Shown: positions 2,214-64,000 of the stretch, in pieces
Numbering within the stretch: the stretch's first letter is position 1
Layout of the letters: every line of letters starts with the position of its first letter
Virus record (IMG/VR): IMGVR_UViG_3300021963_008193
Span: 1-64,000 of that record
Length of the DNA stretch: 64,000 nucleotides
Source of the DNA: a virus
Reading direction: 5' to 3' (one strand)
Translations under genes and position numbers: made by a program
Notes under the pieces: generated by a model
Told to the model about the DNA's origin: nothing
The model's database searches: none
The model's input: the letters and a program-made list of their open reading frames with translations, nothing else

Positions 2214-2257
2214 TGGTATTTTTAGAACAAAGAACTTACGAATTGTATTATTCGGTA

Positions 2258-2265
2258 TATTTATA
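2258..2265 (+). promoter_or_regulatory. TATTTATA motif, candidate late promoter
   Basis: TATTTATA lies 31 bases before the ATG at 2297, in the intergenic gap after the peptidoglycan hydrolase gene, followed by an A-rich leader. Confidence 0.4.
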
Positions 2266-2296
2266 ATAAAATAATTTAAAACAAAAAAACATTGAA

Positions 2297-35033: not shown

Positions 35034-35054
35034 TGTATATAATTTTTTAATTTT

Positions 35055-36113
35055 TTATTCTGTTGGTTCTAGTTTATTTAATTGTTCTTCAAAAGACACT
35101 AATCTTGTTTGGAGATATCCACCAAAAAGAGAATCGACTTCTTTATCAAATTCTTCTTTAGAACTTAATTCATTTACAGTTTCCGACATTGATTCAAACA
35201 TCTTCTCGTTGATATTATCCTCTAACCAATTTTGTAAGAAATCTGCCGCGAAATCAACTACTTGGTTTTTATTGTTAATCCAAAGACCATTATCTTCATT
35301 AATCCAATGAGGTAAAAGATTAGGAACCAAACCTAAAACAGGGACACCTGATATCATCGATTCTAATGGGAATGTACCATAAGCACTTGTCTCATCAATC
35401 CAAATAGAAAGAAAACAATCTTGTAATGCTTCTGAAAATTGTTTTTCACTCAATCCTTTCATATCTCTGAAAGTAATCCATCTGTATTGAGGAAATTTAA
35501 TGTAAAAACTTTTAATAATGTTCGCAGTATCTCTCTGTTCTCTTGAGTGGATAGCAATCATTGGTTTTGCTGGTAGAGTTTGTTTTTTAAAATCCTCAGA
35601 AATATATGGACGTAAAATATCAATACTTGAACTTCTCATAAGATTTGAGATGTGTTCTTTTTGGTGTTCGGAAGTTGTGATACATTTATGGAAACCTAAT
35701 TGTGACCACGTTTGACCTGGTTGTAGAGTTTCTAACATATGGTCATATGATTGACATAAGACAATTTTTGCACATGGTAATTTTGTAATTTGACTCATAA
35801 CAAATCCGTACAATTCAGGGATGATAATAAAATCATCAGGAGAAACCTCCAAGTTTTGACCCTCAATTGACCTATGAGGTAATTCCATATATTCCTTACC
35901 TAACCATCCTTCTACACCAACGTAGTCAGGTTTTTCATGTAACATTATAGGATTATAACCTTGTCTTGATAATGATAAACCTAAACGGTAAATATACGAC
36001 ACTGAAGCCTTTGCGTTACCTTTAGTATCTTGAACTAAGAGATAAAGTTTTGATTTTTTATTTCTTAGATTCTCTATTGATTGTTCTAATTTTTTAATTT
36101 GTTCTTGATTCAT
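35055..36113 (-). CDS. Glycosyltransferase, GT-B fold (GT4-like)
   Basis: The 352-residue protein has the two-domain GT-B pattern: KLYLLVQDTKGNAKASVSYI at the start, and a C-terminal nucleotide-sugar-binding block FPLESMISGVPVLGLV, matching the E-x7-E-like region of GT4 enzymes. The acceptor is unknown. It is the second of five or six glycosyltransferases in this cluster and has a short gap to the next gene. Confidence 0.72.
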   Translation of the reverse strand: MNQEQIKKLEQSIENLRNKKSKLYLLVQDTKGNAKASVSYIYRLGLSLSRQGYNPIMLHEKPDYVGVEGWLGKEYMELPHRSIEGQNLEVSPDDFIIIPELYGFVMSQITKLPCAKIVLCQSYDHMLETLQPGQTWSQLGFHKCITTSEHQKEHISNLMRSSSIDILRPYISEDFKKQTLPAKPMIAIHSREQRDTANIIKSFYIKFPQYRWITFRDMKGLSEKQFSEALQDCFLSIWIDETSAYGTFPLESMISGVPVLGLVPNLLPHWINEDNGLWINNKNQVVDFAADFLQNWLEDNINEKMFESMSETVNELSSKEEFDKEVDSLFGGYLQTRLVSFEEQLNKLEPTE

Positions 36114-36117
36114 ATTC

Positions 36118-36387
36118 TTAGTATTTATTTAATAATTTTTTATTTAACAAACTGTTAAAGGCCAATTTAAAAGGAATTGATAATTCATTACTTTTCATTG
36201 CCAAGGTTTCATCCACCTCTTCATTCTCAGTCATTATGACATCGACAAGGACTTTAATCATATCGTATTTAACAACACTTATGTGATTTTCAGACATTCC
36301 AGTATAATCCTCAGGTTGTTTAATCGTTGTAAATTCCTCAATTTTATCTAAGTCTAGATAATAATGGTCTCCTAATATTTTTAACAT
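36118..36387 (-). CDS. Small unknown protein
   Basis: The 89-residue acidic protein (MLKILGDHYYLDLDKIEEFT; then VEVDETLAMKSNEL-like segments) contains no domain I recognise. It shares its start base with the end of the 36387 gene, so it is transcribed and probably translated together with the HAD-like gene. No further inference. Confidence 0.45.
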   Translation of the reverse strand: MLKILGDHYYLDLDKIEEFTTIKQPEDYTGMSENHISVVKYDMIKVLVDVIMTENEEVDETLAMKSNELSIPFKLAFNSLLNKKLLNKY

Positions 36388-36983
36388 TACACGAGTTCTT
36401 TTAATTTATCCCCCAACTCTTTAATTGACTTAATTGTATGGGTGGTATTTATGGTTTTATTATATTCCGTCTCATACTTTATAATCAATTTATTTGACGG
36501 ATAATCTAATAATAAAGCAGGGTTTGAAGTAAGTAAAAGGTCTATTTCATCCCACATAGAATTAATTGTATAATTACTATAGAATTTTACTTTTTCTAAT
36601 TGACATCCAAACTTAGACAAGAAGAATAATGATGCGGGTTTTGATTTCCCTATTTCATCAGATACGATGATTAAATCATGATTATCTCTTAAATCAACAT
36701 ATACCTCATTTAAATCATTAAACGTACTATATTCAGTTGATTGAGAGTGACCAAAAATCTCCATTGGGAATTCCTCATACAAGAATGAAAACATTTCTTC
36801 ATCGTTTTGGAATTTAAAATGGGACTTTAAATCTAAACTATTAACAGGTAATGACATCTCATAAACAAATTCGTTCTCAGTTTCAATACCATCAGTTTTG
36901 TCAATTAAAAATTTCTGATAAGTTTGTTCAATCTTACCAAGGGTATTTCTAAGAACCCCATTTATCTCAATCCCAATTCTCAT
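36387..36983 (-). CDS. Degenerate HAD-like (5'-nucleotidase type) protein
   Basis: The 198-residue protein looks like a small HAD nucleotidase but the first motif is MRIGIEINGVLRNT, where the expected catalytic D-x-D is replaced by E-x-N. The later Ser/Lys motif (LIIVSDEIGKSKPASLFFLS) and final segment (LLTSNPALLLDYPSNKLIIK) are recognisable. Without the two Asp residues, classic HAD phosphatase activity is unlikely, so it may be a binding or regulatory pseudo-enzyme. Its start overlaps the PhoH gene by 4 bases. Confidence 0.6.
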   Translation of the reverse strand: MRIGIEINGVLRNTLGKIEQTYQKFLIDKTDGIETENEFVYEMSLPVNSLDLKSHFKFQNDEEMFSFLYEEFPMEIFGHSQSTEYSTFNDLNEVYVDLRDNHDLIIVSDEIGKSKPASLFFLSKFGCQLEKVKFYSNYTINSMWDEIDLLLTSNPALLLDYPSNKLIIKYETEYNKTINTTHTIKSIKELGDKLKELV

Positions 36984-37717
36984 TGCTCCTCGTATTTTTC
37001 TAATATGCTACTGATTAATGGGTTTCTTACAATATCATTTTTATCTTTAAACTCAAAGGTTGAGATATTCTTAGAGTCTCTAAATTTTTCAATTGCATCC
37101 CATAAACCACTGTGTGTTTTATTCTTGTATTTATCAGATTGTTCAACATCTCCCGAAATAAAGAATTTACTATTGAAACCAATTCTTGTCAATAAAAGTT
37201 TCATTTGACTTGGTGAGGCATTTTGACCCTCCTCAAAAATTAATATTGAATTATCAATATTCATACCTCTCATGTAAGCCAATGCAAACACCTCAATAAC
37301 ATCAAGGTCTTTTAATTTTTCACGAGCTTCTTTACCAATAATTTTATTCATTAAGTAATAAGAAGGGAAAATATATGGGTCCAATTTCTCCTCAACATTT
37401 CCTGGTAATGAACCTAATTTTTCTTCAGCTTCAACCGCAGGTCTAACGATGATAATTTTTTCGTAAGGTGTTGTTGGGTCTGAGATTAAGTCGATTGCTG
37501 CTTTCATGGTAATGTAACTTTTACCAACTCCCGCGGGACCTGAACAAATCGTTATCTCACTTGAGATTAAAGTATCGTAATACTTTTTTTGGTTATTGGT
37601 TAAGAATTTTTCTTTAGTTTTTTTCTTAACAATTTCCATAATCAAATCTTTTCTGTTAACGTGTTTTCTTGGTTCTTCAGAATTTTGAGTTTGATTTGTT
37701 TTTTTTCTTTGTGTCAT
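36980..37717 (-). CDS. phoH: PhoH-like ATPase
   Basis: The 245-residue protein has Walker A GPAGVGKS at residues 60-67, the RPAVEAEEKLGSLPG block typical of PhoH, a Walker B ILIFEEGQN (EE in place of the usual DE), and a FISGDVEQSD motif. PhoH-like ATPases are common in marine phages and have been linked to phosphate stress and RNA handling, though the actual job in phages is unsettled. It is the first gene of the block after a promoter-like motif and overlaps the degenerate HAD gene. Confidence 0.9.
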   Translation of the reverse strand: MTQRKKTNQTQNSEEPRKHVNRKDLIMEIVKKKTKEKFLTNNQKKYYDTLISSEITICSGPAGVGKSYITMKAAIDLISDPTTPYEKIIIVRPAVEAEEKLGSLPGNVEEKLDPYIFPSYYLMNKIIGKEAREKLKDLDVIEVFALAYMRGMNIDNSILIFEEGQNASPSQMKLLLTRIGFNSKFFISGDVEQSDKYKNKTHSGLWDAIEKFRDSKNISTFEFKDKNDIVRNPLISSILEKYEEQ

Positions 37718-37745
37718 AGACGTTTTTAATATAAATTTATGTCAT

Positions 37746-37753
37746 CATAAATA
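37746..37753 (-). promoter_or_regulatory. TATTTATG motif (on - strand), candidate late promoter
   Basis: Read on the - strand the motif is TATTTATG, 28 bases before the PhoH ATG at 37717. Confidence 0.35.
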
Positions 37754-37774
37754 ATTGTAAACTCCTAATGTATT

Positions 37775-39295
37775 TTAGTGAATACGTATAAGATGATTAA
37801 CTAATCTATTAAGGTTTTGATAAAAAAATGGTAACAATGTTTGAGAATAGTCATGTCTTTCCCCTATCATGTTTTTCTCATCTTTACCTCTTGACTGACT
37901 TTCAAAATGATACGAAACTAAACTACCGTCAAAATAATTTTCATATCCCATTAAGAGACATTTTGCGTTAAGTTCTACATCTTCAAAACAAGTTGTATAA
38001 TTCTCATTATAACTCCCACATTTTTCAAAAACATTTTTTCTAATCATCATTAACGCTGCCGTATTACCAAATACTTTTTTAAATGATACAGGATGGTTAT
38101 AATATGATTTTATATTATCGTGACCTAAAATAATTTGTTGTCGACTATTAACTCCTGCGAACACACCCCCATGTTGTACGGTATTATCTTCAAAATGTAA
38201 TCTACAACCAACAGTTCCTGTTTTAGGGTGTTCTTTCATGATTTTTAACATACCATAAATGACGTTGTTTAATATTTTAATATCATTATTACAAAACAAC
38301 AAAAATTCATATTTGTTATCTATATGATTTTTGACAACATCATTATTTATTTTAGCGAAATTATAATAATCGTATTCAATTAGAGTTATTTGTACCTTTG
38401 TTGAGTTTTCGGTTATATAATTTTTTATTTCGGAAATCTCGTCCTCGTTTGACCCAGTATCTGCAACGAAAATATGATAAAGTTGCGAGTTGGAATGTTC
38501 TATAAATGAATCTATACATTGTTTTAATAAATTAACTTTCCCTTTTGTCGGGATTATTACTGCAACACTACCAACATTTTTAATTGGTTTTTCTTTAATT
38601 TCGGGAGTATATATTTTATTCGGTAATAAGTCTAATGGTAATTTTTCTTTCCATTTATTTAAAAATTTATCCTTACTTTCCCAAAATTCTTGGTTTGGTT
38701 GACCTACCGATTTATGAGTTATTTCAAATGAAGATGTTACACCAATTTTTACATTATCTAAATAATTTGGAATACAAAACCCATGGTCGTAAAAATGGAA
38801 CTTTCCATAAGATTCATCAAAAGTATGTTTGATTTTTGTTTTGTCAAATGATATAAACAAACCATCAATTGTTACTACGGGAATTAAAAAAGGTAGTTTA
38901 GGGGAATATTGACTTAACCATTTTTTTTGGTTTTCAGGATGGTGATACACTTGTCCCACCATTGTTTGTTTCATTTTTTCCCAATAAACTCCTGATTCGG
39001 GAAAATAACATGAACCAGCCTTTCCAATTATACCGAATTCGGGGTTAATGGAAAAATCCTCTAATAGTTTTTTACCCCAATTCTTCTCAAGTTTTATATC
39101 GTTATGACAACAAACTATTATATCATGAGAGGACTCTTCAATACCCTTATTATATAATTCCGATAATGAATATTGGTTGTTATTATTATATTCAATGATT
39201 TGAACATCGGGTAAACCAACTGTCTGTAATAAGTGTCGTTGGAAATTGGAATTATATTCGAAATCCTTATGAGTTGAGTATATTATCGTTATCAT
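37775..39295 (-). CDS. Two-domain glycosyltransferase (GT2-like)
   Basis: The 506-residue protein has an N-terminal half starting MITIIYSTHKDFEYNSNFQR with a GT-A-like DIIVCCHNDIKLE, and a C-terminal GT2 domain from about residue 245 (VAVIIPTKGKVNLLKQCIDS) with FLLFCNNDIKILN and CFEDVELNAKCLLMGY. The C-terminal half resembles rhamnosyltransferase-type GT2 enzymes. Two catalytic units in one protein could add two sugars. It overlaps the next gene by 29 bases, so they are coupled. Confidence 0.75.
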   Translation of the reverse strand: MITIIYSTHKDFEYNSNFQRHLLQTVGLPDVQIIEYNNNNQYSLSELYNKGIEESSHDIIVCCHNDIKLEKNWGKKLLEDFSINPEFGIIGKAGSCYFPESGVYWEKMKQTMVGQVYHHPENQKKWLSQYSPKLPFLIPVVTIDGLFISFDKTKIKHTFDESYGKFHFYDHGFCIPNYLDNVKIGVTSSFEITHKSVGQPNQEFWESKDKFLNKWKEKLPLDLLPNKIYTPEIKEKPIKNVGSVAVIIPTKGKVNLLKQCIDSFIEHSNSQLYHIFVADTGSNEDEISEIKNYITENSTKVQITLIEYDYYNFAKINNDVVKNHIDNKYEFLLFCNNDIKILNNVIYGMLKIMKEHPKTGTVGCRLHFEDNTVQHGGVFAGVNSRQQIILGHDNIKSYYNHPVSFKKVFGNTAALMMIRKNVFEKCGSYNENYTTCFEDVELNAKCLLMGYENYFDGSLVSYHFESQSRGKDEKNMIGERHDYSQTLLPFFYQNLNRLVNHLIRIH

Positions 39296-40010
39296 ATAAA
39301 AAGTTCATTGCGGTTAAATCTTCAACCTCGTTAAAATTATGTGCCTCGAAATCTTTCATAGTTCGTCTATGTTCTAACAATGGAGTGTCGGCTCTACCTC
39401 GATTACATTTTTGTGTAAATTCTTCTTTAGTTTTACCAAAGTAATGATTTAATTGGGCAATATCATCATCACCATTTTCATTAAATGGTCCCATAAACAA
39501 TCTTTTATTTGTGTCTGTTGATGGTTTATTAAAAGGATTATGAACATCCATTATAATATTACTTGATAATTTAATAATGGATTTAACATGATTGTTAATA
39601 GATTTTTGACGTTTTGTAAATCGTTTAAGAACACTGTATTCGTTATTTACTCGTTGATGACCATTGTCACCAAATAAAACCCAGTTAACACCTATTGAGT
39701 GATAATCTAAATAATCTGAGATAAAATCTTTAACATTTTGATGTTTTTTTAAAACTAAAAATTCATCAATATCAAAAAATGCCGCCCAATCATATTTTGT
39801 ATAATTGTTTTGAATAAAATGGTGATAAGCTTCTCGTTGTTTATTAACACCGTCAAAATCTATTGTAATAACGTTAGGTTCGTCAATAGAACACCTCCAA
39901 TCATTTTGATAAATAATAATATCATCAAAACCAAGTTTTTTATTATAATTTATCCATTCTTGGATATACATATCCTCGTTTTTTGCTATACAAACTAATG
40001 CAACCTTCAT
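39267..40010 (-). CDS. Glycosyltransferase of the DUF23/GT92-like or GT2-like type
   Basis: ATG 40010 (MKVALVCIAKNEDMYIQEWI) is preferred over upstream in-frame starts because it clears the next gene. The 247-residue protein matches the small GT2/GT92 pattern: KNED near the start, WAAFFDIDEFLVL as the D-x-D region, and an aspartate-rich C-terminal end. The DIDEF motif is characteristic of GT92-like enzymes. Substrate unknown. It overlaps the previous gene by 29 bases and lies 4 bases after the methyltransferase. Confidence 0.72.
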   Translation of the reverse strand: MKVALVCIAKNEDMYIQEWINYNKKLGFDDIIIYQNDWRCSIDEPNVITIDFDGVNKQREAYHHFIQNNYTKYDWAAFFDIDEFLVLKKHQNVKDFISDYLDYHSIGVNWVLFGDNGHQRVNNEYSVLKRFTKRQKSINNHVKSIIKLSSNIIMDVHNPFNKPSTDTNKRLFMGPFNENGDDDIAQLNHYFGKTKEEFTQKCNRGRADTPLLEHRRTMKDFEAHNFNEVEDLTAMNFLYDNDNILNS

Positions 40011-40014
40011 AATG

Positions 40015-40563
40015 TTATATTTTAACCCACCATTGTTGTCCACCAACAACATTTATTTTATCCCCAAATATTTCATCAACGGCTTGCATTACCCCTGGCC
40101 AACCGATAACATAATCGTCCCCACATAATACTCCACCTTTTTTCACTTTAGGTAACCAATTTTTAATATCTTCAATAACAAATTCATATTCGTGGGAGGC
40201 ATCAATATAAACAATATCGAAATATTCATCACTATAGTTTTTAGATTCAGAAATTGAATCATTTTTAATAAGTTCTATTTTATCTAAAATTGGTTTTAAA
40301 TTTTCCAAAGTAATACCATGGTAGTTAATTGTTTTATCGTGTTCAGTAGACCCCTCAAAATGGTCAATTGCTTTATATTCGTATTCAAGGTTTTCATTAA
40401 TTAATATAGTATTCCACATTGAAGTCCCTCGACCTTGGTAAACACCTATTTCGGCAATTTTTATTTTTTGATTGGTATTAATCAAAGGTAAAATTGTTTT
40501 AAGTAATTCACCTTGTTCAGATTCCGAAGACCATCCTTCGATATTATGATAAAAATGCTCCAT
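40015..40563 (-). CDS. Class I SAM methyltransferase
   Basis: The protein shows IKIAEIGVYQGRGTSMWN (SAM-binding motif I), then EYFDIVYIDASHEYEFV and GGVLCGDDY, a pattern of the class I methyltransferase type 24 group that often acts on sugars. ATG 40563 (MEHFYHN) is chosen; a start at 40590 would run inside the dUTPase reading frame. It lies among glycosyltransferases, so sugar methylation is the most likely use, but this is inferred. Confidence 0.72.
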   Translation of the reverse strand: MEHFYHNIEGWSSESEQGELLKTILPLINTNQKIKIAEIGVYQGRGTSMWNTILINENLEYEYKAIDHFEGSTEHDKTINYHGITLENLKPILDKIELIKNDSISESKNYSDEYFDIVYIDASHEYEFVIEDIKNWLPKVKKGGVLCGDDYVIGWPGVMQAVDEIFGDKINVVGGQQWWVKI

Positions 40564-45861: not shown

Positions 45862-48675
45862 ATGCCGAGTCAAAATATAAATCAATACGTGTATCCTAAC
45901 CTATTTCCAAAACTTGCTTTGGAAAGTCACGACATGTCTTTAACATCGGATGAGTTAGGTTTTAATCAAGAGGTTGTTTTTTCACCTTATTTGATTGCAC
46001 AGACTTATGGTAACCGACTTCCTTTTTACTTTGATATTAATAATAGTGAAACGGTACAAAATCTAAATTTAACTTATAAAAATTATAATCGAAATAATAT
46101 TTTTGTTTCTCAGAACTATTATAACCCCGATAAAAAAGACTTAACTTGTTTTACAGGGATGAGTTCTTGTGACATTGGATTAACAGGAATAGATAATGGT
46201 TTAGTTACTCAAATGACGGGTCAGACTATTACATTCACTAATGGTTTATTACCTGACACATTAAAATTTGATAGGTTAAGTTTTGACAGAAGATTAAAAT
46301 TATTTCAAGTAACTGGAAACACATCAAACAATATTAGATTCTCAGGGTTCGATAAAACCATTCTATATGAGGTTGTAAGTAAATACAGTCCTTATGAAGG
46401 TAAATACCATGAATTATATGGTGGGTTTTATCAAGGATTTTATAAGTTATTTGGTTATGATTATGAAATTTTTCCTGAAAGAATGAACAAAGGATGGGCG
46501 GTTGAGATGATTCTAAAACCAAGACTATTCAATGAATATACACCATTACCAAACGAAACAACCTTAAATGATTTGTACCCTGGTAATAAAAATACTTTCT
46601 TTTATTTCGGGACTCGAGCGGAAAATAAATTCTATCATCATGCTGATGGTACTCCAAATTGTTTTACAGGTTATACAAGAGTTACGTCTCCTTTAACAGG
46701 TTTAAGTACTTGTGCATGTTGTAATAAAACAATCACAGATAGTCGTTGTATCTATGTTTACCCTCCAAGGTCTGTTGATGGTAAACATGACCCACATATT
46801 AATTACGGTTGTAAATTATGTAATGGTGATAAAACAAAAAGTTTAACATGTGGTTGTAATTGTGGTGATTATGGTTGTGAGGATTGTGGATGGGAATGTC
46901 AAACACATGTTTGTCCTCCTGAACCATCACCTACACCAACCCCAACACCGAGCCCAACGCCTACAAGTGACGGGTGCATCCCAAAACCTGTGTGCACACC
47001 AACATGTACAACATGTGATACTTGTACAGATTGTATTGATTGTGCATCTACAGGTTATACTTCAGTCGAAGATACTTGTGAAAAAGACCCGTTATATGAC
47101 GCAATGTCAAACGCGTTATCTTTTAGACTTTGTGGTGACCCAAAAAACCCACAAATTGGTGTAAAAGTTTTAAGGTTTACAGGTGATTGTACAACAACAG
47201 GTTCTTGTTCTACATCAGGAATAACATATACAACAGGTTATACGGTAACTGAATATTGTACACCACCAATTTATCCAAGATGTCAAAAAGAAAATCCTGC
47301 TTGGTTAGAACAAGAACATTGGTTCCAACTTGATGCGGTATGGGAGAGATATACATGGTTGGATTACTGCGATTTAAATTATAGGGGTGGTTTAGGTGAC
47401 ATAACAAAAGAATTTTATCTTGAGTCATTAGCCAATAATACTACTTCATTAGTAACTGCACAATATACTCATTCAGGAACAACTCCACCACAACAAATCG
47501 AACTTGTTAATTTAAACGAGAAATGGTTACTTGATAAACATTATAGAAAAGGTAGATTAAAATTTTACATTAACGGTAAAATTTTCCATACGTTGGAGGA
47601 TTTTGAAGAACTTATTCCAAGAGCGTTAAACACTGATAAAGAAAAACAGGTTGGTGTTCCGTTTAATGTATCGTGGGGAGGTGGTACTCAAGGACTAAGA
47701 GAGAATTTAACGTTCTCATCTATGACATTACCATACGGACCTTATATTCAAGACCCTGAATGTCTCCCAATTAATGATTTAACAGGTACAACATTTAACG
47801 GTTTAAAAACAAATATTCAAATAGAACAAAACTTTGCTGGTAACTTTGAAGGTGGAATTTCCCAATTCAGAATGTATGTGGAACCATTATCAGCACCTGA
47901 AGTAAAACACAACTTTAAATTATTAAAGAATATCTTTAGGATGTTTAATCCTGATTGTCCTGATTGTTCGACTGATGTTTGTTTAACTGATGATTTCACT
48001 TATGACATTGTTGAAAACCCACAACAATTAGGAAGAATACACATTCCTGATAACAGAGATAACAAATATTTGATTGAGAATAAATTAACTTTAAAACCAT
48101 CATTACTAACCTCAAAAAATTGGGAGGACAATATTTGGTGGGGAAACCAAGGTCAGACACCTATGTGTGTTGGATATGCTTGGGCTCATTGGATTGAGGA
48201 TGGCCCAATTACTCACAAGTCAAAAACTCGACCTGTTGTTTCACCAATTCTAATTTATAAAGAAGCGCAAAAACTTGATGAATGGGTTGGGGAAAATTAT
48301 GATGGAACATCTGTTAGAGGTGGTGCGAAATATTTAAAAAAGACAGGAAAGATATCATCATATCTTTGGACATTCGACCTTAATGTTATGATTAATACTG
48401 TTTTAACAGTTGGTCCTGTTGTAGTTGGTACTAATTGGTATAACACCATGTTTTATCCTGACCGTAATGGTCTATTAAGAGTTGGTGGTAGAGTTGCAGG
48501 AGGTCATGCTTATGAAATAAATGGTGTTGACACGGTTAAACAATTATTTAGAATCAAAAATAGTTGGGGTAGAACTTGGGGTCAACAAGGACACGCATAT
48601 ATATCGTTCTCTGATATGAGAAGATTAATTAACGAAAACGGTGAGGTTTGTTTAGCCGTTGAAAATAGATTTTAA
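45862..48675 (+). CDS. Large virion/tail protein with C-terminal papain-like protease
   Basis: The 937-residue protein has an N-terminal beta-rich region, a cysteine-rich segment at about 275-420 (many C-x2-C pairs), split by a [12 protein letters not shown] linker, a lectin/LamG-like beta region (about 480-690), and a papain (C1A) domain at about 745-937. The catalytic set is visible: oxyanion Gln at 763, Cys 769 (PMCVGYAWA), His 882 (GGHAYEING) and Asn 900 (KNSWGRTWG). No signal peptide is present. A virion protein with a cysteine protease at its end could cut host surface proteins or process neighbouring fibres; that is inference. The next gene starts 3 bases later. Confidence 0.8.
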   Translation: MPSQNINQYVYPNLFPKLALESHDMSLTSDELGFNQEVVFSPYLIAQTYGNRLPFYFDINNSETVQNLNLTYKNYNRNNIFVSQNYYNPDKKDLTCFTGMSSCDIGLTGIDNGLVTQMTGQTITFTNGLLPDTLKFDRLSFDRRLKLFQVTGNTSNNIRFSGFDKTILYEVVSKYSPYEGKYHELYGGFYQGFYKLFGYDYEIFPERMNKGWAVEMILKPRLFNEYTPLPNETTLNDLYPGNKNTFFYFGTRAENKFYHHADGTPNCFTGYTRVTSPLTGLSTCACCNKTITDSRCIYVYPPRSVDGKHDPHINYGCKLCNGDKTKSLTCGCNCGDYGCEDCGWECQTHVCPPEPSPTPTPTPSPTPTSDGCIPKPVCTPTCTTCDTCTDCIDCASTGYTSVEDTCEKDPLYDAMSNALSFRLCGDPKNPQIGVKVLRFTGDCTTTGSCSTSGITYTTGYTVTEYCTPPIYPRCQKENPAWLEQEHWFQLDAVWERYTWLDYCDLNYRGGLGDITKEFYLESLANNTTSLVTAQYTHSGTTPPQQIELVNLNEKWLLDKHYRKGRLKFYINGKIFHTLEDFEELIPRALNTDKEKQVGVPFNVSWGGGTQGLRENLTFSSMTLPYGPYIQDPECLPINDLTGTTFNGLKTNIQIEQNFAGNFEGGISQFRMYVEPLSAPEVKHNFKLLKNIFRMFNPDCPDCSTDVCLTDDFTYDIVENPQQLGRIHIPDNRDNKYLIENKLTLKPSLLTSKNWEDNIWWGNQGQTPMCVGYAWAHWIEDGPITHKSKTRPVVSPILIYKEAQKLDEWVGENYDGTSVRGGAKYLKKTGKISSYLWTFDLNVMINTVLTVGPVVVGTNWYNTMFYPDRNGLLRVGGRVAGGHAYEINGVDTVKQLFRIKNSWGRTWGQQGHAYISFSDMRRLINENGEVCLAVENRF

Positions 48676-48678: not shown

Positions 48679-50220
48679 ATGAGTCAAAGTATTATTATAC
48701 GAAGTATTAACTACGATGGAGAAATGGCAAACATCCTCTTCAACCCATACGGGGAAGAAACTGTTTTTAACTTAGGGGACCATAACCTCCCATTCGTATT
48801 TAACCCTTCATTATTAGAACCACCAAAAGATGTTTATGGTACATACACTATTTTAGTATTAGGTTCCGATTGCCCAAATTTTTTAAATGTCCCAAGACCT
48901 ACACCTACACCTACACCAACTCCGAGCGTTACTAAAACATCAACACCTACTGTTACCCCAACAATTACCCCAACACCTACATTTGACCCTTGTAAAGTTC
49001 CAACTCAAACACCAACAGTAACTACAAGTCCAACGGTAACACCAACAATGACCATGACACCTAGTCAAACTTGTACTAATCCTTGTGGATGTCCTGAACC
49101 AAGTAAAACACCTAAACCTCGTAAAACACCTACACCTACACCAAGTGCCACAAGTGGGTACTGTTATCCTACTCCAACACCTACACAGACAATAACTCCA
49201 ACAAATACTATAACACCTACACATACTGCGACGCCGACTATAACACCAAGTACATCACCATTAACATGTGATTTTACTTATGAAATTTTAGATGTGACAA
49301 ATACCCCAACTCCAACCCCAACAATTACACCTACAATATCATTAACTCCCACAATGACCCCAACTAACACCATTACACCAACCCCTACGGAAAGTCTTAC
49401 ACCAACCCCTACAGTTACACCTACTGAATCATTAACACCAACTCCAACACCTACCATTACTCCAACCAATACCCTAACACCAACACCAACAATAACACCT
49501 ACGGAATCATTAACACCAACGCCAACACCAACAATAACTCCTACGGAATCATTAACACCAACACCAACACCAACAATAACCCTCACACCAACCTCAACCT
49601 TAACCCCAACACCTACGCCTACACCATATAGAAATTTCTTAATTACAAATTTAGATACTGATGGTTGTGTTGTTTCATCTATTGGAGCTAATTTCAGTAC
49701 GATGTTTAATTTCTCTTATCCAATTATAAATGGACAAAGTGGTAACGGATTCTTGTATTCAAACATTGTAGGAGACTATATGACTTTTACAATAACAGGA
49801 GGTACTGTTAATGGTGTTAATGTTTATGAGAATGGTATATTGACTAGCGGATTTACAGGATTTGACCCAGTAACGTACACCTACTATCTAACTCAAACTA
49901 TTGGTGATAATGATTTATTGTACGTTGAGGTATTTAACCCTTTAAATCCACCGAGTCCAACCCCAACAATAACCCCTACAATTACACCAACTCAAACAAT
50001 AACCCCTACAATTACCTCAACTCAAACATTAACCCCAACACCTACCTCGACTCAAACATTAACTCCAACACCTACCGAAACTTTAACCCCTACCCCGACT
50101 ATCACACCAACTGAAACATTAACTCCGACTCCAACTCCGACCGATACAGGAAGTTATCTATTACAAGCAAATGGATTCTTCGTTTTACAGGCGGATGGGT
50201 CAAAGATTATAATAACATAA
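48679..50220 (+). CDS. Thr-Pro-rich fibre protein
   Basis: The 513-residue protein has a folded ~75-residue N-terminal domain ([19 protein letters not shown]), then a Cys-containing Thr-Pro region, a long TPTPT / TPTESL repeat stalk, a ~100-residue beta domain (about residues 315-430) and a second Thr-Pro stretch, ending in a hairpin-like tail [19 protein letters not shown]. The N-terminal domain resembles that of the 50878 gene, suggesting a common attachment unit. The Thr-Pro stalk is probably extended and a good O-glycosylation target. It lies in a fibre operon. Confidence 0.75.
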
Positions 50221-55481: not shown

Positions 55482-57950
55482 ATGATTGAAATAACAGGGG
55501 CAACGGGCTCAGGGCCATATGATATTATTATATGTGACATTACGTTGACATATTGTTACCCCGTTGCTTATTCTGTCTCAATTCCACCAACATATTACGC
55601 AACAATTCCATCTGAACTTGAGGGGGTTACTCAAGTTGCGGTTCAATTAATTGATTCTTTAGGTTGTCCTTGCGTTCAGATATGTGATTGTCCAATACCG
55701 TCAGTTACACCAACGTTAACACCTACGGTTACGCCGACAATGATTGTTGAATGCAATTGTATTACATTTGAAAACACTTTATCGGACCCACAAGATTATA
55801 CATATACAAATTGTGATGGAACTGTGATTTACGGTTCTATTTATGGTGAAACTTCACTTTATGTTTGTGGTAAATTACCAAGTACAAATAGTGAATATGT
55901 TAATATAACAATCTCTTCATTTTGTGTTGGAGGTTCTTGTCCTCCACCAACACAAACACCAACACCAAGTATCACCCCAACAAATAGTTTACCACCAATT
56001 ACTGGTATTTTTGAAGACTGTTGTGACCCAACAAATATAATGGCTATTACAACAATACCATTTAGTTTTTATCCTTTATCAGGAGTTTATTACGTTGAGA
56101 GTTCAGGATTTAATGGTTGTGTGAATTTATTAACAACAACATTCTATGATAATGTTTATACTTATGTTGACGCAACAACCTTTATTGATTGTATGGATTG
56201 TCAAATATCATACCCATGCTCAACTCCTACACCAACAATGACCCCAACTAATACCACAACCCCTACATTTACACCGACAAATACCCCAACAATGACAGAA
56301 AGTCCTACACCGACACTTACTCAAACTATTTCACCAACAATAACTCCTACAAATACAATTACCCCAACGTTAACTCCTACAATAACCCCAACAAATACAT
56401 TAACCGTTACTCCAACTAATACAATTACTCCAACTAATACTATCACACCTACAAATACGATTACACCAACTAATACTATCACACCAACCCATACAATTAC
56501 CCCAACAAATACTATCACACCTACAAATACTATCACACCTACAGTAACTCCAAGTATTTCATTGACACCTACTCAAACAGTGACACAAACCCCAACTCAA
56601 ACCATAACCCCTACTATTTCATTAACACCAACTAAAACTGTAACACCAACAATAACTGCGACTATTTCATTAACACCAACTAAAACTGTAACACCAACAA
56701 TTTCATTAACACCAACTAATACTATTACCCCAACAATAACTCCTACAAATACGATTACGCCTACTCAGACTATTACACCTACAAATACTATTACACCAAC
56801 TCAGACTATTACACCAACTCAAACTGTAACACCATCAATAACACCTACAATATCATTATCACCTAGAAATACCTCAACGCCTACTCAAACTATTACTCCA
56901 ACCGTTACTCCGACAATTTCGTTAACACCAACGATTTCGTTAACGCCAACACAAACCCCAACTAAAACTACGACCCCTACAATTTCGTTAACACCAACAC
57001 AAACTCCGACTAAAACTACAACCCCTACAATTTCATTAACCCCGACACAAACTATAACGCCAACAGTTACCCCTACAATTTCACTAACTCCAACTATTTC
57101 ATTAACTCCGACAAGAACAATTACACCAACTGTAACCCCAACTATTTCATTAACTCCAACTAATACAAATACTCCAACAATAACACCTGCTCGTACATCA
57201 ACCCCAACTCAAACAATTACCCCAACAAATACTTTAACACCTACTAATACAGGTACTCCTGGTGTTTCTGTAACTCCTACAATTTCATTAACTCCAACAC
57301 AAACTATAACACCGACAGTTACTCCTACAATTTCATTAACTCCAACACAAACTATAACACCGACAGTTACCCCTACAATTTCATTAACTCCAACACAAAC
57401 TATAACACCGACAGTTACCCCTACAATTTCATTAAGTCCAACAATATCACTAACACCTACGATTTCATTAACTCCAACCAATACCCCAACTAAAACTGTT
57501 ACACCAAGTATCACATTGACACCGACAAATACAAATACTCCGACAATGACAATTACACCAACTGTTACACCTACAATTTCATTAACTCCAACTAATACAA
57601 ATACACCGACTCAAACACCAACTAAAACTACAACACCAACTATCTCATTAACACCTACAATATCCTTAACGCCAACGATTTCGTTAACTCCAACTCAGAC
57701 TATAACTCAAACAGTAACACCTACGATTTCATTAACTCCAACAATATCCTTAACGCCAACTAACACTCAGACACCAACTAACACGCCTGCACGTACATCA
57801 ACCCCAACACAAACATTAACTCCAACAGTGACTCCAACAATATCCTTAACGCCAACGATTTCATTAACACCAACAATTTCATTAACCCCTACTCAAACAA
57901 TAACGCCAACTAATAAATCACACCGACAGTTACACCTACAATTTCATTAA
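55482..57950 (+). CDS. Thr-Pro repeat fibre protein, first part of a frameshifted gene
   Basis: The 822-residue frame has a small N-terminal domain, two Cys-rich beta segments, then from about residue 245 hundreds of residues of T-P-T-x repeats ([11 protein letters not shown] and variants). It ends with [15 protein letters not shown], which no longer fits the repeat. In another frame the repeat continues immediately after base 57916 and runs to 59281. Restoring one base around 57913-57917 joins both into a protein of about 1266 residues. The repeat DNA is codon-varied, so the repeat is kept at the protein level. Confidence 0.75.
57292..57440 (+). repeat. Tandem ~48-bp repeats in Thr-Pro gene
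   Basis: About three near-identical units of about 48 bases (CTCCAACACAAACTATAACA and onward) encode the [16 protein letters not shown] unit. They are embedded in the Thr-Pro gene and may change copy number. Confidence 0.65.
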
Positions 57951-59281
57951 CACCAACTAATACGGGAACACCAGGAAATTCTGCAACACCAACACAAACA
58001 TTAACCCCTACCCAAACTCCGACTAAAACCGTGACACCAACGATTTCATTAACACCGACTCAAACATCTACAGTAACTATTACTCCAACAATTTCATTAA
58101 CACCAACACAAACTCCGACTAAAACTGTTACACCAACAATATCATTAACTCCAACCCAAACAATTACCCCAACTGTTACACCGACAATTTCATTAACCCC
58201 TACAATATCGTTAACTCCAACCCAAACAATTACCCCAACTGTTACACCTACAATTTCATTAACTCCAACTAATACAAATACACCGACTCAAACACCAACT
58301 AAAACTACAACACCAACTATCTCATTAACACCTACAATATCCTTAACCCCAACTAGAACTATTACGCCTACAATATCGTTAACACCGACTCAAACACCAA
58401 CTAAAACTACAACACCTACAATTTCGTTAACTCCAACGATTTCATTAACTCCTACAATTTCGTTAACTCCAACGATTTCATTAACTCCAACTATAACCCC
58501 AACACCAACTATAACTCAAACACCAACAAAAACAGTAACACCAAGTGTTAGTAATAAACCTACTGACACACCTGCGGTAACTCCTACAATTTCGTTAACA
58601 CCAACCATAACACCAACAAAAACTGTTACTCCGACCATAACACCAACAAAAACTGTTACTCCGACCATAACACCAACAAAAACTGTTACTCCGACCATAA
58701 CACCAACTCCAAGTGCAACATGTCTTACTTATCGTTTAACGGCGGGTAAAACTAATGCCACTTTCACATTCACACCTTGTTGTGGGGAACCAACAACATC
58801 ACCTGTAACACTTGTAAGTACTGATAGTATTGACGTTTGCTCAACAACATTACCAACAACTGCAAATCCTGGAGCAACGATAGTTGGACTGAATACCCCA
58901 TGTACATTATGTAATGATGCGATAGTGGCGATTAATTATAGAACGTCTAATAGTGGAACAACCACAAGCCAAACAGGAACTTTAAGTTACACATTAAATG
59001 GGGGGTCACCTATAGTGATAAGTTCAATACTACGGTCAAATTTAGGGACAAATTATGTTGGTTTTACTCCTATTACATGTAATTATGGTGACGTTTTAGT
59101 ATTTAATTTTTCAGCAAATGTTGGTGGGGATAATTCATGGGGTGTTGGTAACTTAGGACCATATAATAATATTGGATGTTTTACGGCAAACGATTACACC
59201 TATACCGTGACATCAACAGGTCTTACTAATCTATACTTCAACATTACTTCCCAAAATACCATATGGGGGGCAACTTGTTAA
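57917..59281 (+). CDS. Thr-Pro repeat fibre protein, second part of a frameshifted gene
   Basis: The frame is open from 57917 but has no ATG near its start; the first alternative start is a GTG at 58031, giving 416 residues. It continues the T-P-T-x repeat of the preceding ORF for about 270 residues and then has a ~185-residue C-terminal domain with eight Cys ([20 protein letters not shown] start; ending NTIWGATC). There is no promoter-like motif or leader between the two ORFs, so this is most likely the C-terminal part of one gene interrupted by a one-base indel, or joined by an unusual frameshift. Confidence 0.75.
58604..58693 (+). repeat. 30-bp tandem repeat, three exact copies
   Basis: Three exact head-to-tail copies of a 30-base unit (ACCATAACACCAACAAAAAC and ten more bases) encode [10 protein letters not shown]. 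They lie near the end of the Thr-Pro stalk. Confidence 0.9.
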
Positions 59282-59292
59282 TTTAAGTAATC

Positions 59293-59300
59293 TATTTATT
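59293..59300 (+). promoter_or_regulatory. TATTTATT motif, candidate late promoter of the modification cassette
   Basis: TATTTATT lies 40 bases before the ATG at 59341, farther than usual; the intervening leader is A/T-rich. Confidence 0.35.
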
Positions 59301-59340
59301 TTAAACGAAAACAAATTACTTTTTTCATAAAAAAAGAAGT

Positions 59341-60588
59341 ATGAGAATATTTGTGCAAATCGCATCCTACAGGGACCCCCAATTATTACCGACAATAAAA
59401 AATATGTTTGAAAATGCTAAGAAACCTAAAAATTTGGTTTTAAGTATTTGTAGACAATATCATCCTGAAGATGGTTTTGATAATCTTGATGAATACAGAG
59501 ATGATGATAGATTTAGAATTATTGATATTTTATATTCGGAATCAAAAGGAGTATGTTGGGCAAGAAATTTAACACAACAACAATATCAAGGTGAGGAATA
59601 CACTTTACAGATTGACTCTCATATGAGATTTGAAAAGAATTGGGACGATACCCTAATAAAAATGATTAAACAACTTCAAAAGAAAGGATTTGAGAAACCA
59701 TTATTAACAGGTTATGTTTCTTCTTTTGACCCCGATAATGACCCGCAAGGAAGAATCCAAGAACCATGGAGAATGGTATTTGATAGATTTATTCCTGAAG
59801 GTGCGGTTTTCTTTTTACCTGAAACAATACCAGGGTGGAAAGAAATGAAAGAACCTGTAACCGCAAGATTTTATTCTGCTCACTTCGCGTTTACAATAGG
59901 TAAATTCAGTGAAGAGGTTCAACACGACCCTGAATTTTATTTTCATGGTGAAGAAATTTCAATTGCCGCAAGAGCTTACACTCATGGGTATGATTTATTC
60001 CACCCACATAAAGTAGTGATTTGGCACGAATATACTCGTAAAGGTAGGACCAAGCAATGGGATGATGATAAAGAATGGGTTAAGAAAAATGATGTGTCTC
60101 ATGCCAAAAATAGACAACTATTCGGAATGGATGATGAGGAAGTTACATTAGAATTTGGTAAATACGGTTTTGGAACTGAAAGAACATTAAAAGAATATGA
60201 AATTTATTCAGGGTTGAGGTTTTCAAGAAGAGCGGTTCAACAATATACTTTAGATAAATTATACCCACCAAACCCTCAGGTTTTTGATACTGAAGAAGAA
60301 TGGGAAAATAGTTTTGCGAGTATCTTTAAACATTGTATCGATGTTGGATTTTACCAAGTCCCTGAAAAAGATTATGAGTTTTGGGTAGTAGCGTTCCATG
60401 ACGAAAATGACGAAACCATTTTTAGAAAAGATGCTGACATACATGAGATTAATCGAATGATGACAGACCCTGATGGGTATTGTAAAGTATGGAGAGATTT
60501 CCAAACAACACATAAACCAAAATATTGGGTAATATGGCCTTATAGTACATCAAAAGGTTGGTGTGAAAGATTAACAGGAAATTTATAA
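59341..60588 (+). CDS. GT60-like GlcNAc-transferase (Skp1-type)
   Basis: The 415-residue protein matches the GlcNAc-transferase family PF11397 (CAZy GT60), known from Dictyostelium and protozoa as UDP-GlcNAc:polypeptide GlcNAc-transferases that modify hydroxyproline or Thr. Motifs: QIASYRDPQL (residues 6-15), VCWARNL, LQIDSHMRFEKNWD with the D-x-H metal motif at residues 92-94, FYSAHFAFTIGKF, and FHGEEISIAARAYTHG around 201-216. It lies 59 bases after the Thr-Pro stalk gene and 4 bases before an FkbM methyltransferase. Modification of the neighbouring Thr-Pro fibres is an inference from family and position. Confidence 0.85.
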   Translation: MRIFVQIASYRDPQLLPTIKNMFENAKKPKNLVLSICRQYHPEDGFDNLDEYRDDDRFRIIDILYSESKGVCWARNLTQQQYQGEEYTLQIDSHMRFEKNWDDTLIKMIKQLQKKGFEKPLLTGYVSSFDPDNDPQGRIQEPWRMVFDRFIPEGAVFFLPETIPGWKEMKEPVTARFYSAHFAFTIGKFSEEVQHDPEFYFHGEEISIAARAYTHGYDLFHPHKVVIWHEYTRKGRTKQWDDDKEWVKKNDVSHAKNRQLFGMDDEEVTLEFGKYGFGTERTLKEYEIYSGLRFSRRAVQQYTLDKLYPPNPQVFDTEEEWENSFASIFKHCIDVGFYQVPEKDYEFWVVAFHDENDETIFRKDADIHEINRMMTDPDGYCKVWRDFQTTHKPKYWVIWPYSTSKGWCERLTGNL

Positions 60589-60592: not shown

Positions 60593-61264
60593 ATGAACAC
60601 ATTTAATTTACCAGAGTTAGAAACTCTAATTTACGAAAAAACAAATAGTTTTATTATCATTGGGGCCTTTGATGGGGAAAGTCATGATAATTTTTTTACT
60701 AAAATACAAGAAAAACCAAATAAAAATAACAATACGATAATTTTTGTAGAGCCCGTAGAAAAGTACTACAACGAGTTAACAAAAAAAGTTAGTTCATTGG
60801 TTAATTATAACGTTATATGTGAGAACACGGCAATTTCAGATAAAGTTGAGTCTATTGAAATGGTTTCTGTTAAACCTAATTTATTGGATAAATACGGTTG
60901 GTATATAGAAGGGTGTGCGTGTGTTGTTGAGAACAATACCCCGTTAAATATCTACATGAAAGAGGTAGAGGAAATCGACATTGATAGAGAAGAAATTACA
61001 ACTATTACGTTTAATGATTTATTATTTAAACATGGTTTACCTACCATCGATTTTTTACAAATTGATACTGAAGGTTATGATGAAAGAATTTTAAATACCA
61101 TTAATTTTGAATCATTGAACATCAAATTTATAAAATTTGAAAGACATTATTTAAGTGAAGGATTCATCGAGGTCTTTATAAATAAATTAGAGGTACTTGA
61201 TTATTCATATTATTGGGACAATGATAATTACTACTTTGTTAAAAATTCAATTATTAATGGCTAA
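60593..61264 (+). CDS. FkbM-type methyltransferase
   Basis: The 223-residue protein has the FkbM pattern: SFIIIGAFDGESHDNFF, TIIFVEPVEKYYNELTKKV and IDFLQIDTEGYDERILNTI. FkbM enzymes methylate sugar or polyketide hydroxyls. The end overlaps the carbamoyltransferase by 8 bases, so it belongs to a tight modification operon. The natural acceptor may be the sugar added by the upstream enzyme; that is inference. Confidence 0.82.
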   Translation: MNTFNLPELETLIYEKTNSFIIIGAFDGESHDNFFTKIQEKPNKNNNTIIFVEPVEKYYNELTKKVSSLVNYNVICENTAISDKVESIEMVSVKPNLLDKYGWYIEGCACVVENNTPLNIYMKEVEEIDIDREEITTITFNDLLFKHGLPTIDFLQIDTEGYDERILNTINFESLNIKFIKFERHYLSEGFIEVFINKLEVLDYSYYWDNDNYYFVKNSIING

Positions 61265-62834
61265 TATATCTTTTTACGGTTCACATAACTCTTCCGTTGT
61301 TGTTGAGAACAATGGTAAAATATTAACGGTTATTGAAGTTGAGCGTTTTTTAAACGTTAAAAATGCGGGGTATGGACAATATCTAACTTCCAATACAAGA
61401 TTCTTTTTAATAAATGAAATTTTAAAATATATTAAGAACGAATATGGTATAAGTGAATTTGAAACTTGTTACTACTCTAATACAGATACAATTGAAGGCC
61501 CTACTAAGGTTCATTATGAAAAAATGATACCCGCTAAAAATTATGTAAATGTTTTACACCATCTGTCTCACGCGGCTTGTGCGTTTTACCAATCAAAATA
61601 TAATGAAGGGTTAATTGTTTCATTTGATGGTGGTGGTAGTGATGGGTTTTTTAACATATATCACGCAAAGAATCGAGATGAAATTATTTTAATTGATAAA
61701 TTTAATATTGATTTAGGGTTTGCATATATGTCATTTGGTGATTACTTAAACGATATAAGACAGGAGCCTGCATTAAACATTGGTAATTTAGTTTATTCAG
61801 GTAAAATAATGGGATTATGTTCTTATGGTACAATTAACGAAATGTGGTTACCTTATTTTGAGAAATATTATAGAGCAAAACCTGATGGTTTAAATTATTT
61901 AGAATTATTAAATCAATTAGGTGAAGAAACTGGTTTAATATTTAATCGTAATGATAGGTTAACAGGTCAAACATCTTGGGACGTTGCTAAGACTTCACAA
62001 ATCGCTTTTGAAAATGTTTTTATGGAGATAATAACTCCATTCTTAGAAATGTTTCCTAAATTACCTTTATTATTAACGGGGGGTTGTGCTTTAAATATTT
62101 TACTAAATACAAAATTATATCATGAATTAGAAAGAGATGTATTTGTCCCGCCAAATCCAAATGACTGTGGGATGGCTTCAGGTATGATTTTATTACATAT
62201 GAAACCTAAAGAGGTTATTGATTTAACGTATTCAGGGATTCCAATTTTAGATAAAAATACATTAATGATGATTTCCGAAAATCAATATAATACCACCCCA
62301 ATAGATACCGACACAGTTGTTAATGATTTAGTTTCAGGTAAAATTATTGGTGTTGTTAGAGGAAACTCGGAGCATGGACCAAGAGCTTTGGGGAATAGAA
62401 GTATAATTTGTGACCCATCTCACCCTGATATGAAAGACATACTAAATACCAAAGTTAAAAATAGAGAGTGGTATCGACCATTCGCACCTGTTTGTAGATT
62501 AGAAGATGTTTCTAAATACTTTAAATTTAGTGGTGAAAGTAGATGGATGAGTTTTTGTCCTGAAGTACGAGAGGAATGGAGGGAAAAATTAACCTCAATA
62601 ACACATATTGATGGGACCGCTAGAGTTCAAACAGTAACCAAAGAAGAAAATGAATGGTTATATAATTTAATAACCGAATTTGAAAAGGTTTCAGGAATTG
62701 GGGTTCTTCTAAACACATCATTTAACGTTAATGGTAAACCAATATTATCAACCTATAAAGACGCGTTACATGTATTTAAAACCACACAAATGGATAAACT
62801 AATATTGGAAGATTATTACATAATTAACAAATGA
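61257..62834 (+). CDS. Carbamoyltransferase, NodU/TobZ/CmcH family
   Basis: ATG 61257 (MANISFYGSHNSSVVV) is chosen; an in-frame start at 61197 would add 20 residues inside the FkbM gene. The 525-residue protein shows the N-terminal Kae1-like half (HHLSHAACAFYQS; IVSFDGGGSDGFF; LTGGCALNILLNTK) and the C-terminal YrdC-like half (EHGPRALGNRSII; REWYRPFAPV; NTSFNVNGKPIL). These enzymes transfer a carbamoyl group from carbamoyl phosphate to a sugar or antibiotic hydroxyl. It overlaps its neighbours by 8 and 4 bases. Confidence 0.92.
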   Translation: MANISFYGSHNSSVVVENNGKILTVIEVERFLNVKNAGYGQYLTSNTRFFLINEILKYIKNEYGISEFETCYYSNTDTIEGPTKVHYEKMIPAKNYVNVLHHLSHAACAFYQSKYNEGLIVSFDGGGSDGFFNIYHAKNRDEIILIDKFNIDLGFAYMSFGDYLNDIRQEPALNIGNLVYSGKIMGLCSYGTINEMWLPYFEKYYRAKPDGLNYLELLNQLGEETGLIFNRNDRLTGQTSWDVAKTSQIAFENVFMEIITPFLEMFPKLPLLLTGGCALNILLNTKLYHELERDVFVPPNPNDCGMASGMILLHMKPKEVIDLTYSGIPILDKNTLMMISENQYNTTPIDTDTVVNDLVSGKIIGVVRGNSEHGPRALGNRSIICDPSHPDMKDILNTKVKNREWYRPFAPVCRLEDVSKYFKFSGESRWMSFCPEVREEWREKLTSITHIDGTARVQTVTKEENEWLYNLITEFEKVSGIGVLLNTSFNVNGKPILSTYKDALHVFKTTQMDKLILEDYYIINK

Positions 62835-63724
62835 AAAATACAAAACTAGTTACATCGTTTTACACCGAAATAGACGGACACCCATTTTACGGACATGCCG
62901 AGCAATCAAGACACGAAAGATATTTACATTCTATGAGAGTTCTAAATAACATGGGGATTGAGATTGTCTGTTATTGCAATGATACTCAATTAGAGTTATT
63001 AACAGAGTATGTAAGTGAATTCAATCTAAATAACATTACATTAAAAGTTTCTAATTTATCTGATTCACTATTTGCTAGTCGAATGAAAGATATTAAAGAA
63101 AAAACTAATAATTTTAAATTTTATCATGAAGTTGATTGGAACAAACTTTTTTTATTAGAAAAGGAATATGATGAAAGTTATGACTATCTGTATTGGATTG
63201 ATGCTGGGTTATCTCACCATGGAATATTTCCTAAAAAATATAATCCGAATTCTCATTTGGCAACAGGGATGTCAAGTGACTTTAACACATATTCATTTAC
63301 AAATCTGTTTACTAAGGAATTATTCGGAGGAATAAATAACTTTGTCGGAGACAAATTACTTAGTTTAGACAATGAATTAAAATTCCATAACATTTACGAA
63401 CTAAATGAAGTTCTTGAGGGTAATTTTACATTTGATTCATTATCCGTTGGGGGAATAATCGGAGGTCATGTGAGTAAGATTAAATGGTTAATTGATAAGT
63501 TTAATTTAATGGGTGAGAAGTCGTTAAGTAAAAATGTAATTTTAAATCACGAAGCAATAATTTCATTTATCAAGGAAGAAACCCCTGAGAATTTCGAAAG
63601 ATTTATTTTCCAAACATGGTATCATGAAGATACTGAAGGTATGGATGATTATATAATAAAAGAACAAATACACTTTAGTCATTTTTTTGATATGATTAAT
63701 GAAAAACATATAACAAATAATTAA
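62831..63724 (+). CDS. Glycosyltransferase-like protein (HtrL/YibB or WlaTC type)
   Basis: The 297-residue protein begins KLVTSFYTEIDGHPFYGHAE and has YLYWIDAGLSHHGIFPK, which fits the W-I-D-A-G pattern of the HtrL_YibB/WlaTC group, believed to be GT-A-like glycosyltransferases. The end has FIFQTWYHEDTEGMDD. Assignment is by pattern and moderate. It overlaps the carbamoyltransferase by 4 bases and is followed 1 base later by another FkbM-like gene. Confidence 0.6.
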   Translation: MKNTKLVTSFYTEIDGHPFYGHAEQSRHERYLHSMRVLNNMGIEIVCYCNDTQLELLTEYVSEFNLNNITLKVSNLSDSLFASRMKDIKEKTNNFKFYHEVDWNKLFLLEKEYDESYDYLYWIDAGLSHHGIFPKKYNPNSHLATGMSSDFNTYSFTNLFTKELFGGINNFVGDKLLSLDNELKFHNIYELNEVLEGNFTFDSLSVGGIIGGHVSKIKWLIDKFNLMGEKSLSKNVILNHEAIISFIKEETPENFERFIFQTWYHEDTEGMDDYIIKEQIHFSHFFDMINEKHITNN

Positions 63725-63725
63725 C

Positions 63726-64000
63726 ATGGATAATTTTTTTGATAAGTCATTACATTTTTTAGGGAAAACTAACAATACCATAACCGCATTAAACATTGGG
63801 TCAATGGACGGTGTGATGTTCGATGAAATGATTGGGTATACTCAAATGTATAATTTTAAAGTTCTATATGTTGAACCAATACCTTATTTATTTGACAGAT
63901 TAAAAAGTAATATTGGTGACGGAGGGTTATTTGAAAATAGTGCAATATCTGACTACGATGGTGAGATTGAGATGATGACAATTGATAGAGAAGTTATTGA
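63726..64000 (+). CDS. FkbM-type methyltransferase, 3'-truncated by window edge
   Basis: From ATG 63726 the frame is open to the right edge. The visible 91 residues show LNIGSMDGVMFDEMI (SAM-binding region), FKVLYVEPIPYLFDRLKSNI and FENSAISDYDGEIEM, the same start as FkbM-like methyltransferases and similar to the gene at 60593. It is probably the second methyltransferase of the cassette. The rest lies outside the window. Confidence 0.75.
   Translation, partial: MDNFFDKSLHFLGKTNNTITALNIGSMDGVMFDEMIGYTQMYNFKVLYVEPIPYLFDRLKSNIGDGGLFENSAISDYDGEIEMMTIDREVI

Follow-up and report, generated by a model that had tools for sequence, protein, structure and literature searches.

A GT60-family glycosyltransferase gene paired with threonine-proline-repeat proteins suggests mucin-type O-glycosylation encoded by tailed phages

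Very long proteins built from threonine-proline (Thr-Pro) repeats recur in large, mostly metagenomic phages, and we found no explained function for them; phage glycosyltransferases are usually assigned by default to the modification of DNA or of the host surface. What, then, is the target of a GT60-family (PF11397) glycosyltransferase whose gene starts 59 bases past the stop codon of such a Thr-Pro gene? This arrangement (stop at 59281, start at 59341) was pointed out in a first-pass annotation of the window studied here, a stretch of 64,000 bases that corresponds to positions 1-64,000 of the 74,965-base IMG/VR record IMGVR_UViG_3300021963_008193, and our analysis bears it out. Major capsid and terminase matches among the window proteins identify the source as a tailed phage. 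The annotation proposed that the phage decorates its own Thr-Pro proteins at threonine, an interpretation that sequence comparison and structure modelling support: glycosylation of threonines within Thr-Pro or poly-Thr tracts by the phage-encoded GT60 enzyme is the best explanation of this locus, and in our judgement a probable one.

The open reading frame (ORF) at 59341-60588 matches PF11397 with E=3e-72 and 244.5 bits (curated cut-off 21) and phrog_24687, a 'glycosyltransferase' family, with 8.5e-171; NCBIfam returned no match for the enzyme, and neither did a PDB sequence search with the GT60 profile. A catalytic domain (about residues 1-295) carrying a DSH motif at residues 92-94 is followed by an extra C-terminal beta domain (about residues 300-415). 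Across an alignment of 79 diverse phage relatives D92, S93 and H94 are invariant, as are Gly203, Glu205, Arg211, His229 and further residues, and a DxH motif replacing the DxD metal motif is the mark of GT27 and GT60 (PMC7185993). The AlphaFold2 model of the enzyme reaches a mean predicted local distance difference test score (pLDDT) of 94.8. Polypeptide N-acetylgalactosamine (GalNAc) transferases fill the first 18 places among its PDB matches (E 8e-11 to 1e-9; 10-18% identity), several of them solved with peptide or glycopeptide acceptors, and no DNA glucosyltransferase is found among the top 50 PDB matches listed. As such, the enzyme is a member of the GT60 family by score, DxH motif and predicted fold. 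The extra beta domain modelled alone (116 aa, pLDDT 91.9) gave no PDB match with E below 0.04, and we do not claim a lectin identity for it, there being no confident match. No signal peptide was seen by eye at the N-terminus, and the enzyme therefore likely acts in the cytoplasm.

Is its position beside a Thr-Pro gene more than a coincidence? Where 5 kb or more of sequence is available upstream of GT60, a Thr-Pro tract lies within about 10 kb of the gene in 52 of the 58 loci belonging to the clade of the window enzyme (hereafter the window clade) and in 42 of 67 loci from distant clades, and no comparable tract was found in 67 viral loci taken at random (585 kb). The nearest Thr-Pro gene is commonly the one directly upstream of GT60; in the window clade tract and enzyme are nearly always on the same strand, and in the window itself no terminator-like site was found between the two genes. 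Co-occurrence, for which the first-pass annotation had suggested a survey and whose absence it had named as refuting its proposal, was found from either side: the Thr-Pro repeat DNA pattern is present in 22/23 large GT60-positive records versus 0/28 random viral contigs (Fisher p=1.5e-13), and PF11397 in 20/49 contigs picked only for the repeat pattern versus 1/28 random ones (Fisher p=3.5e-4), where the surveyed contigs are fragments and the random ones are shorter on average, eight of them exceeding 100 kb. Within a single lineage, sampled by capsid protein, all seven GT60-positive contigs carry Thr-Pro repeats versus 6 of 15 GT60-negative ones (p=0.017). GT60 loci are not independent of one another, and for that reason label changes were counted on a GT60 tree. 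The label 'Thr-Pro tract within 3 kb upstream' changes 24 times on what is a quick tree with many weak branches, and at least 14 of these changes are forced by well-supported branches, which weakens shared ancestry alone as an account of the pairing. After clustering at 85%, a tract is present in 17/20 window-clade clusters and 29/49 clusters of the distant set. Furthermore, the pairing extends to bacterial GT60 loci of several phyla, many of them metagenome-assembled and some possibly phage contigs: 12/67 loci have Thr-Pro tracts no more than 2 kb upstream of the enzyme gene, a density of 91 per Mb, compared with 6.5-18 per Mb in the remaining parts of these loci. The pairing of GT60 with Thr-Pro tracts is not due to chance, and the gene system is real and recurrent.

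The Thr-Pro gene upstream of GT60 had been read as one protein of about 1266 residues, which needs correction: the frame that opens at 55482 ends at 57950 and the repeat resumes one frame over. A single frame break at about 57,912 thus splits the sequence of 55482-59281 into 822 and 416 aa, of which the tract takes up about 562 and 264 residues, respectively. Because such a jump is the only case in 411 Thr-Pro tracts (36,492 residues from the window and 160 GT60 loci), a programmed feature is less likely than a slip in sequencing or assembly or a mutation of recent date; a programmed frameshift or phase variation has no second case to support it. The tract uses all Thr codons, in synonymous proportions that resemble those of neighbouring genes, and is therefore long-maintained coding sequence rather than the product of recent simple-repeat slippage. 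The second Thr-Pro protein that had been reported, starting at 48679, is indeed present (Table 1), and has a weak PHROG match to a family of unknown function. Some Thr-Pro proteins terminate within their tract (L044, L047, L048, L054 and L060), which weakens the reading of the tract as purely a tip spacer.

Several other repeat-bearing or fibre-like proteins were noted along the way. Directly before the shorter Thr-Pro gene, a 937-aa protein (45862-48675, plus strand) combines a short Pro-Thr linker with a C-terminal papain-like cysteine peptidase (PF00112, phrog_16701), and homologues of it occur in about 20 GT60 loci. Loci L083 and L084, which have only short Thr-Pro tracts near GT60, carry an upstream ORF (2-3421) with collagen-like TSGTNGTNGT repeats, another Thr-rich type, and L073 has a different repeat, LTPDEPEVP, some 450 bases upstream of its GT60 gene. 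In L023 and L024 the ORF directly upstream of GT60 is fibre-like and its end, '...NLYFADGILTHNKL...', resembles an intein/Hint C-terminus.

Which residue would take the sugar? Long acceptor-like domains rich in Thr and Pro, or in Thr, are present as looked for in a mucin-type system, the viral tracts consisting of 42-47% Thr, 23-34% Pro and about 4% Ser. Window-clade loci without long Thr-Pro tracts can have poly-Thr tails, such as TTTTTIPVTTTTTTI (L045, L046, L066). Moreover, a protein with a conserved N-terminus is encoded near GT60 in 78/160 loci (in this phage at record positions 66146-66706, beyond the window); its tails are dissimilar, yet among the 38 distinct long ones 29 are rich in Thr, being either poly-Thr or Thr-Pro. 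The trait that is kept across the tails, as read from these sequences, is threonine density, as in mucins, and not a fixed motif. Characterised GT60 enzymes transfer alpha-linked N-acetylglucosamine (GlcNAc) to Thr of mucin-like proteins (PMC3769586, PMC8724618), and that of Trypanosoma cruzi was assayed with KPPTTTTTTTTKPP as acceptor (PMC3769586). As had been remarked for the window, no prolyl hydroxylase is visible: PF13640, the only hydroxylase family searched for, is absent from all 45 GT60-positive records, this one included, although a host enzyme or another oxygenase family could act instead. The Thr-rich tracts, the poly-Thr tails, the acceptor of the T. cruzi assay and the lack of PF13640 together favour Thr over hydroxyproline, in line with the acceptor predicted by the first-pass annotation.

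Downstream of GT60 lie further genes that could act on a sugar (Table 1). An FkbM gene (60593) and a carbamoyltransferase gene, both named in the first-pass annotation, are confirmed by Pfam but are not steady partners: among 162 other viral loci, homologues lie downstream of GT60 in three for FkbM and four for the carbamoyltransferase. We therefore do not regard these two as conserved module members, the specific genes being rare there and the gene class typical. The 297-aa protein has distant homologues (24-30%) in 24 viral loci, no more than 8 kb downstream of the enzyme gene. Of the genes that follow GT60, that of the HtrL_YibB protein is its most conserved partner in the window clade, present in 48/50 well-flanked loci, compared with 7/53 distant and 0/67 random loci; within distant clades, presence of HtrL did not significantly predict a Thr-Pro tract (p=0.40). 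The genes between GT60 and HtrL vary from locus to locus. In a non-random sample of 18 downstream proteins from other loci, 12 pass the Pfam cut-off for a glycan-related, HtrL_YibB or FkbM family, and the domains encountered include GT10, GT34, PLOD-type and RXYLT1-type glycosyltransferases, FkbM, carbamoyltransferase and a nucleotidyltransferase fusion. By gene content, extending or modifying enzymes thus stand beside the initiator, as looked for in a mucin-type system, and a fixed initiator with a changing gene set is the pattern that would be expected from exchange of the outer sugar. Elsewhere in the window, a second glycosyltransferase gene set (GT2 types and a GT92-like one) lies at 34230-40052 on the minus strand, mixed with a PhoH gene.

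Taken together, these genes probably constitute a set for mucin-type O-glycosylation that is encoded by the phage and acts in the cytoplasm. In it, the GT60-like enzyme would place the first sugar, most likely alpha-linked N-acetylhexosamine (HexNAc) from UDP-GlcNAc, on many threonines within the Thr-Pro tracts, or in relatives the poly-Thr tracts, of fibre or baseplate proteins soon after their synthesis. The FkbM methyltransferase, the carbamoyltransferase, and HtrL_YibB-type and other glycosyltransferases may then extend or cap this sugar, and swapping of such genes between phages would give each phage a sugar coat of its own. The benefit may consist of stiff, extended stalks, shielding from proteases, masking of the particle or presentation of the tip. 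In this scheme the sugar, the acceptor residue, the virion location of the Thr-Pro proteins and the benefit are what we infer from the gene system. More tentative, although a serious possibility, is the broader proposal of a widespread, self-contained phage mucin system, with a conserved GT60 initiator, several mucin-like virion acceptors and exchangeable sugar-modifying genes, which, with the related clusters of free-living bacteria, would be the first bacterial or phage case of GT60-initiated mucin-type O-glycosylation.

The closest known systems agree with the proposed set in part. Like Gnt2 of Dictyostelium and TcOGNT-2 of T. cruzi, the phage enzyme belongs to PF11397/GT60, carries DxH and has Thr-rich, mucin-like proteins as likely acceptors; unlike them, it is phage-encoded, apparently cytoplasmic, gene-linked to its likely acceptor and extended by the C-terminal beta domain. 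The GT27 polypeptide GalNAc-transferases share the DxH type and provide its best fold matches, but belong to another family at 10-18% identity, and no ricin-type lectin domain was identified in the phage enzyme. Among cultured phages, ORF334 of the jumbo Xanthomonas phage XacN1 is 48% identical to the window enzyme, and the Stenotrophomonas phages RAS14 and CM1 also encode a GT60 enzyme; in XacN1 and RAS14, as in Jiulongibacter, the carbamoyltransferase gene adjoins it. For XacN1, at least two glycoproteins are reported from proteomics, their sugar, site and enzyme being left unassigned by the authors (PMC5852040). XacN1 and the mycobacteriophages with virion glycosylation likewise combine phage glycosyltransferases with glycosylated or glycoprotein-bearing particles. 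The mycobacteriophage sugars are placed at the C-termini of capsid and tail-tube proteins (Freeman et al. 2023, as cited in PMC12619734), sites that differ from the Thr-Pro stalks proposed for this phage. Large aquatic 'moraphages', with predicted Bacteroidota hosts, have four core glycosyltransferase groups without a target (PMC12619734). Jiulongibacter sediminis JN14-9, a cultured member of the Bacteroidota, encodes a Thr-Pro protein, two PF11397 genes, a carbamoyltransferase and an FkbM-HtrL_YibB protein (L485, 7945-15142). GT60 (57% identical to the phage protein), carbamoyltransferase (66%) and FkbM-HtrL_YibB (55%) follow the same order as in the phage, whereas the Thr-Pro gene is divergent, the locus is part of a bacterial chromosome and contains another PF11397 gene, itself divergent, and the acceptor would be a cell protein.

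Several observations do, however, weigh against glycosylation of the Thr-Pro proteins. The long Thr-Pro gene of XacN1 is about 12 kb from GT60, the passages of the XacN1 report cited here do not name the glycoproteins, and tail fibres were not seen by microscopy (PMC5852040). GT60 is not always paired with Thr-Pro repeats, since a nearby tract is missing from about 18 of the 53 distant GT60 loci that are well flanked, and the GT60 records G068 and G137 have no such repeats at all; conversely, 29 of the 49 repeat-seeded records are without GT60, many being fragments and several exceeding 100 kb. Moreover, it is from the gene neighbourhood alone that we infer a place for the Thr-Pro proteins in virion fibres. 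Could the enzyme then serve another target, such as a host surface polysaccharide or another virion protein, with the adjacency reflecting a shared, variable fibre and glycan island? Modification of host envelopes, or of other targets, is a frequent role of glycosyltransferases in phages (see the discussion in PMC12619734), and both the tract-less third of distant loci and the Thr-Pro proteins of records without GT60 would fit. The nearest solved folds are nonetheless polypeptide transferases, the Thr-Pro gene is commonly directly upstream, the tree has at least 14 changes of pairing, and GT60 and Thr-Pro tracts also pair in bacterial genomes, in which a fibre island of a phage would be unexpected. 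Together this leaves the explanation unlikely.

The glycosylation of phage DNA bases, a common proposed role of glycosyltransferases in large phages (for instance in PMC12619734), is extremely improbable, as the GT-A model is nearest to polypeptide GalNAc-transferases, the enzyme belongs to PF11397 and its gene is linked to Thr-rich proteins. Very unlikely, too, is hydroxyproline as the acceptor, with a host enzyme, or a phage one that went unrecognised, doing the hydroxylation. One GT60 branch does modify hydroxyproline (PMC8724618), as in Dictyostelium Skp1, and the tracts are Pro-rich; yet a Skp1-type system would need a prolyl 4-hydroxylase to go with the transferase, and PF13640 (as one 2-oxoglutarate-dependent oxygenase family) is absent from the 45 GT60-positive records, and in some relatives poly-Thr tails with few prolines stand in for the Thr-Pro tracts.

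Both halves of the preferred reading, in which the GT60 enzyme modifies threonines of the Thr-Pro proteins, have been known separately, as mucin-type initiation by GT60 and as phage virion glycosylation, and we found no report of both on Thr-Pro proteins. A search of the open-access literature found no paper linking GT60 or PF11397 with phages, nor one linking phages with Thr-Pro or mucin-like glycosylated fibres. If true, GT60-initiated mucin-type glycosylation would not be confined to protists, and phages may exchange sugar coats as they exchange fibre tips. With initiator and acceptor linked as genes, candidate acceptors and residues can be named and virion O-glycosylation is directly testable, and the enzyme is carried by cultured organisms, namely XacN1, RAS14, CM1 and Jiulongibacter sediminis.

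Table 1. Features of the Thr-Pro and GT60 region, in window positions
Feature	Position	Strand	Remarks
Thr-Pro-repeat fibre-like protein, putative acceptor	48679..50220	+	513 aa, 65 TP dipeptides, four tracts
Thr-Pro-repeat protein, first reading frame, putative main acceptor	55482..57950	+	822 aa, tract at residues 248-809
Frame break within Thr-Pro tract, reading shifts to another frame	57905..57920	+	
Thr-Pro tract continuation, second frame	57917..59281	+	first in-frame start 58031
Cys-containing C-terminal domain of second-frame Thr-Pro ORF	58721-59278	+	186 aa, 60% identical in relative L005
GT60-family (PF11397) glycosyltransferase, proposed initiating polypeptide O-HexNAc transferase	59341..60588	+	415 aa
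FkbM-type methyltransferase, putative glycan decoration, variable cassette	60593..61264	+	Pfam
NodU/TobZ-type carbamoyltransferase, putative glycan decoration	61197..62834	+	Pfam; likely start near 61257
297-aa protein, possible glycosyltransferase	62831..63724	+	no Pfam or PHROG match
FkbM + HtrL_YibB + C-terminal domain protein, start	63726..64000	+	790 aa, continues to record position 66098

Beyond the window, at record positions 71088-72626 on the minus strand (L085, 9088-10626), a phage gene was recognised by eye as encoding an Fe/Mn superoxide dismutase domain, which is fused to a further domain of about 300 residues.

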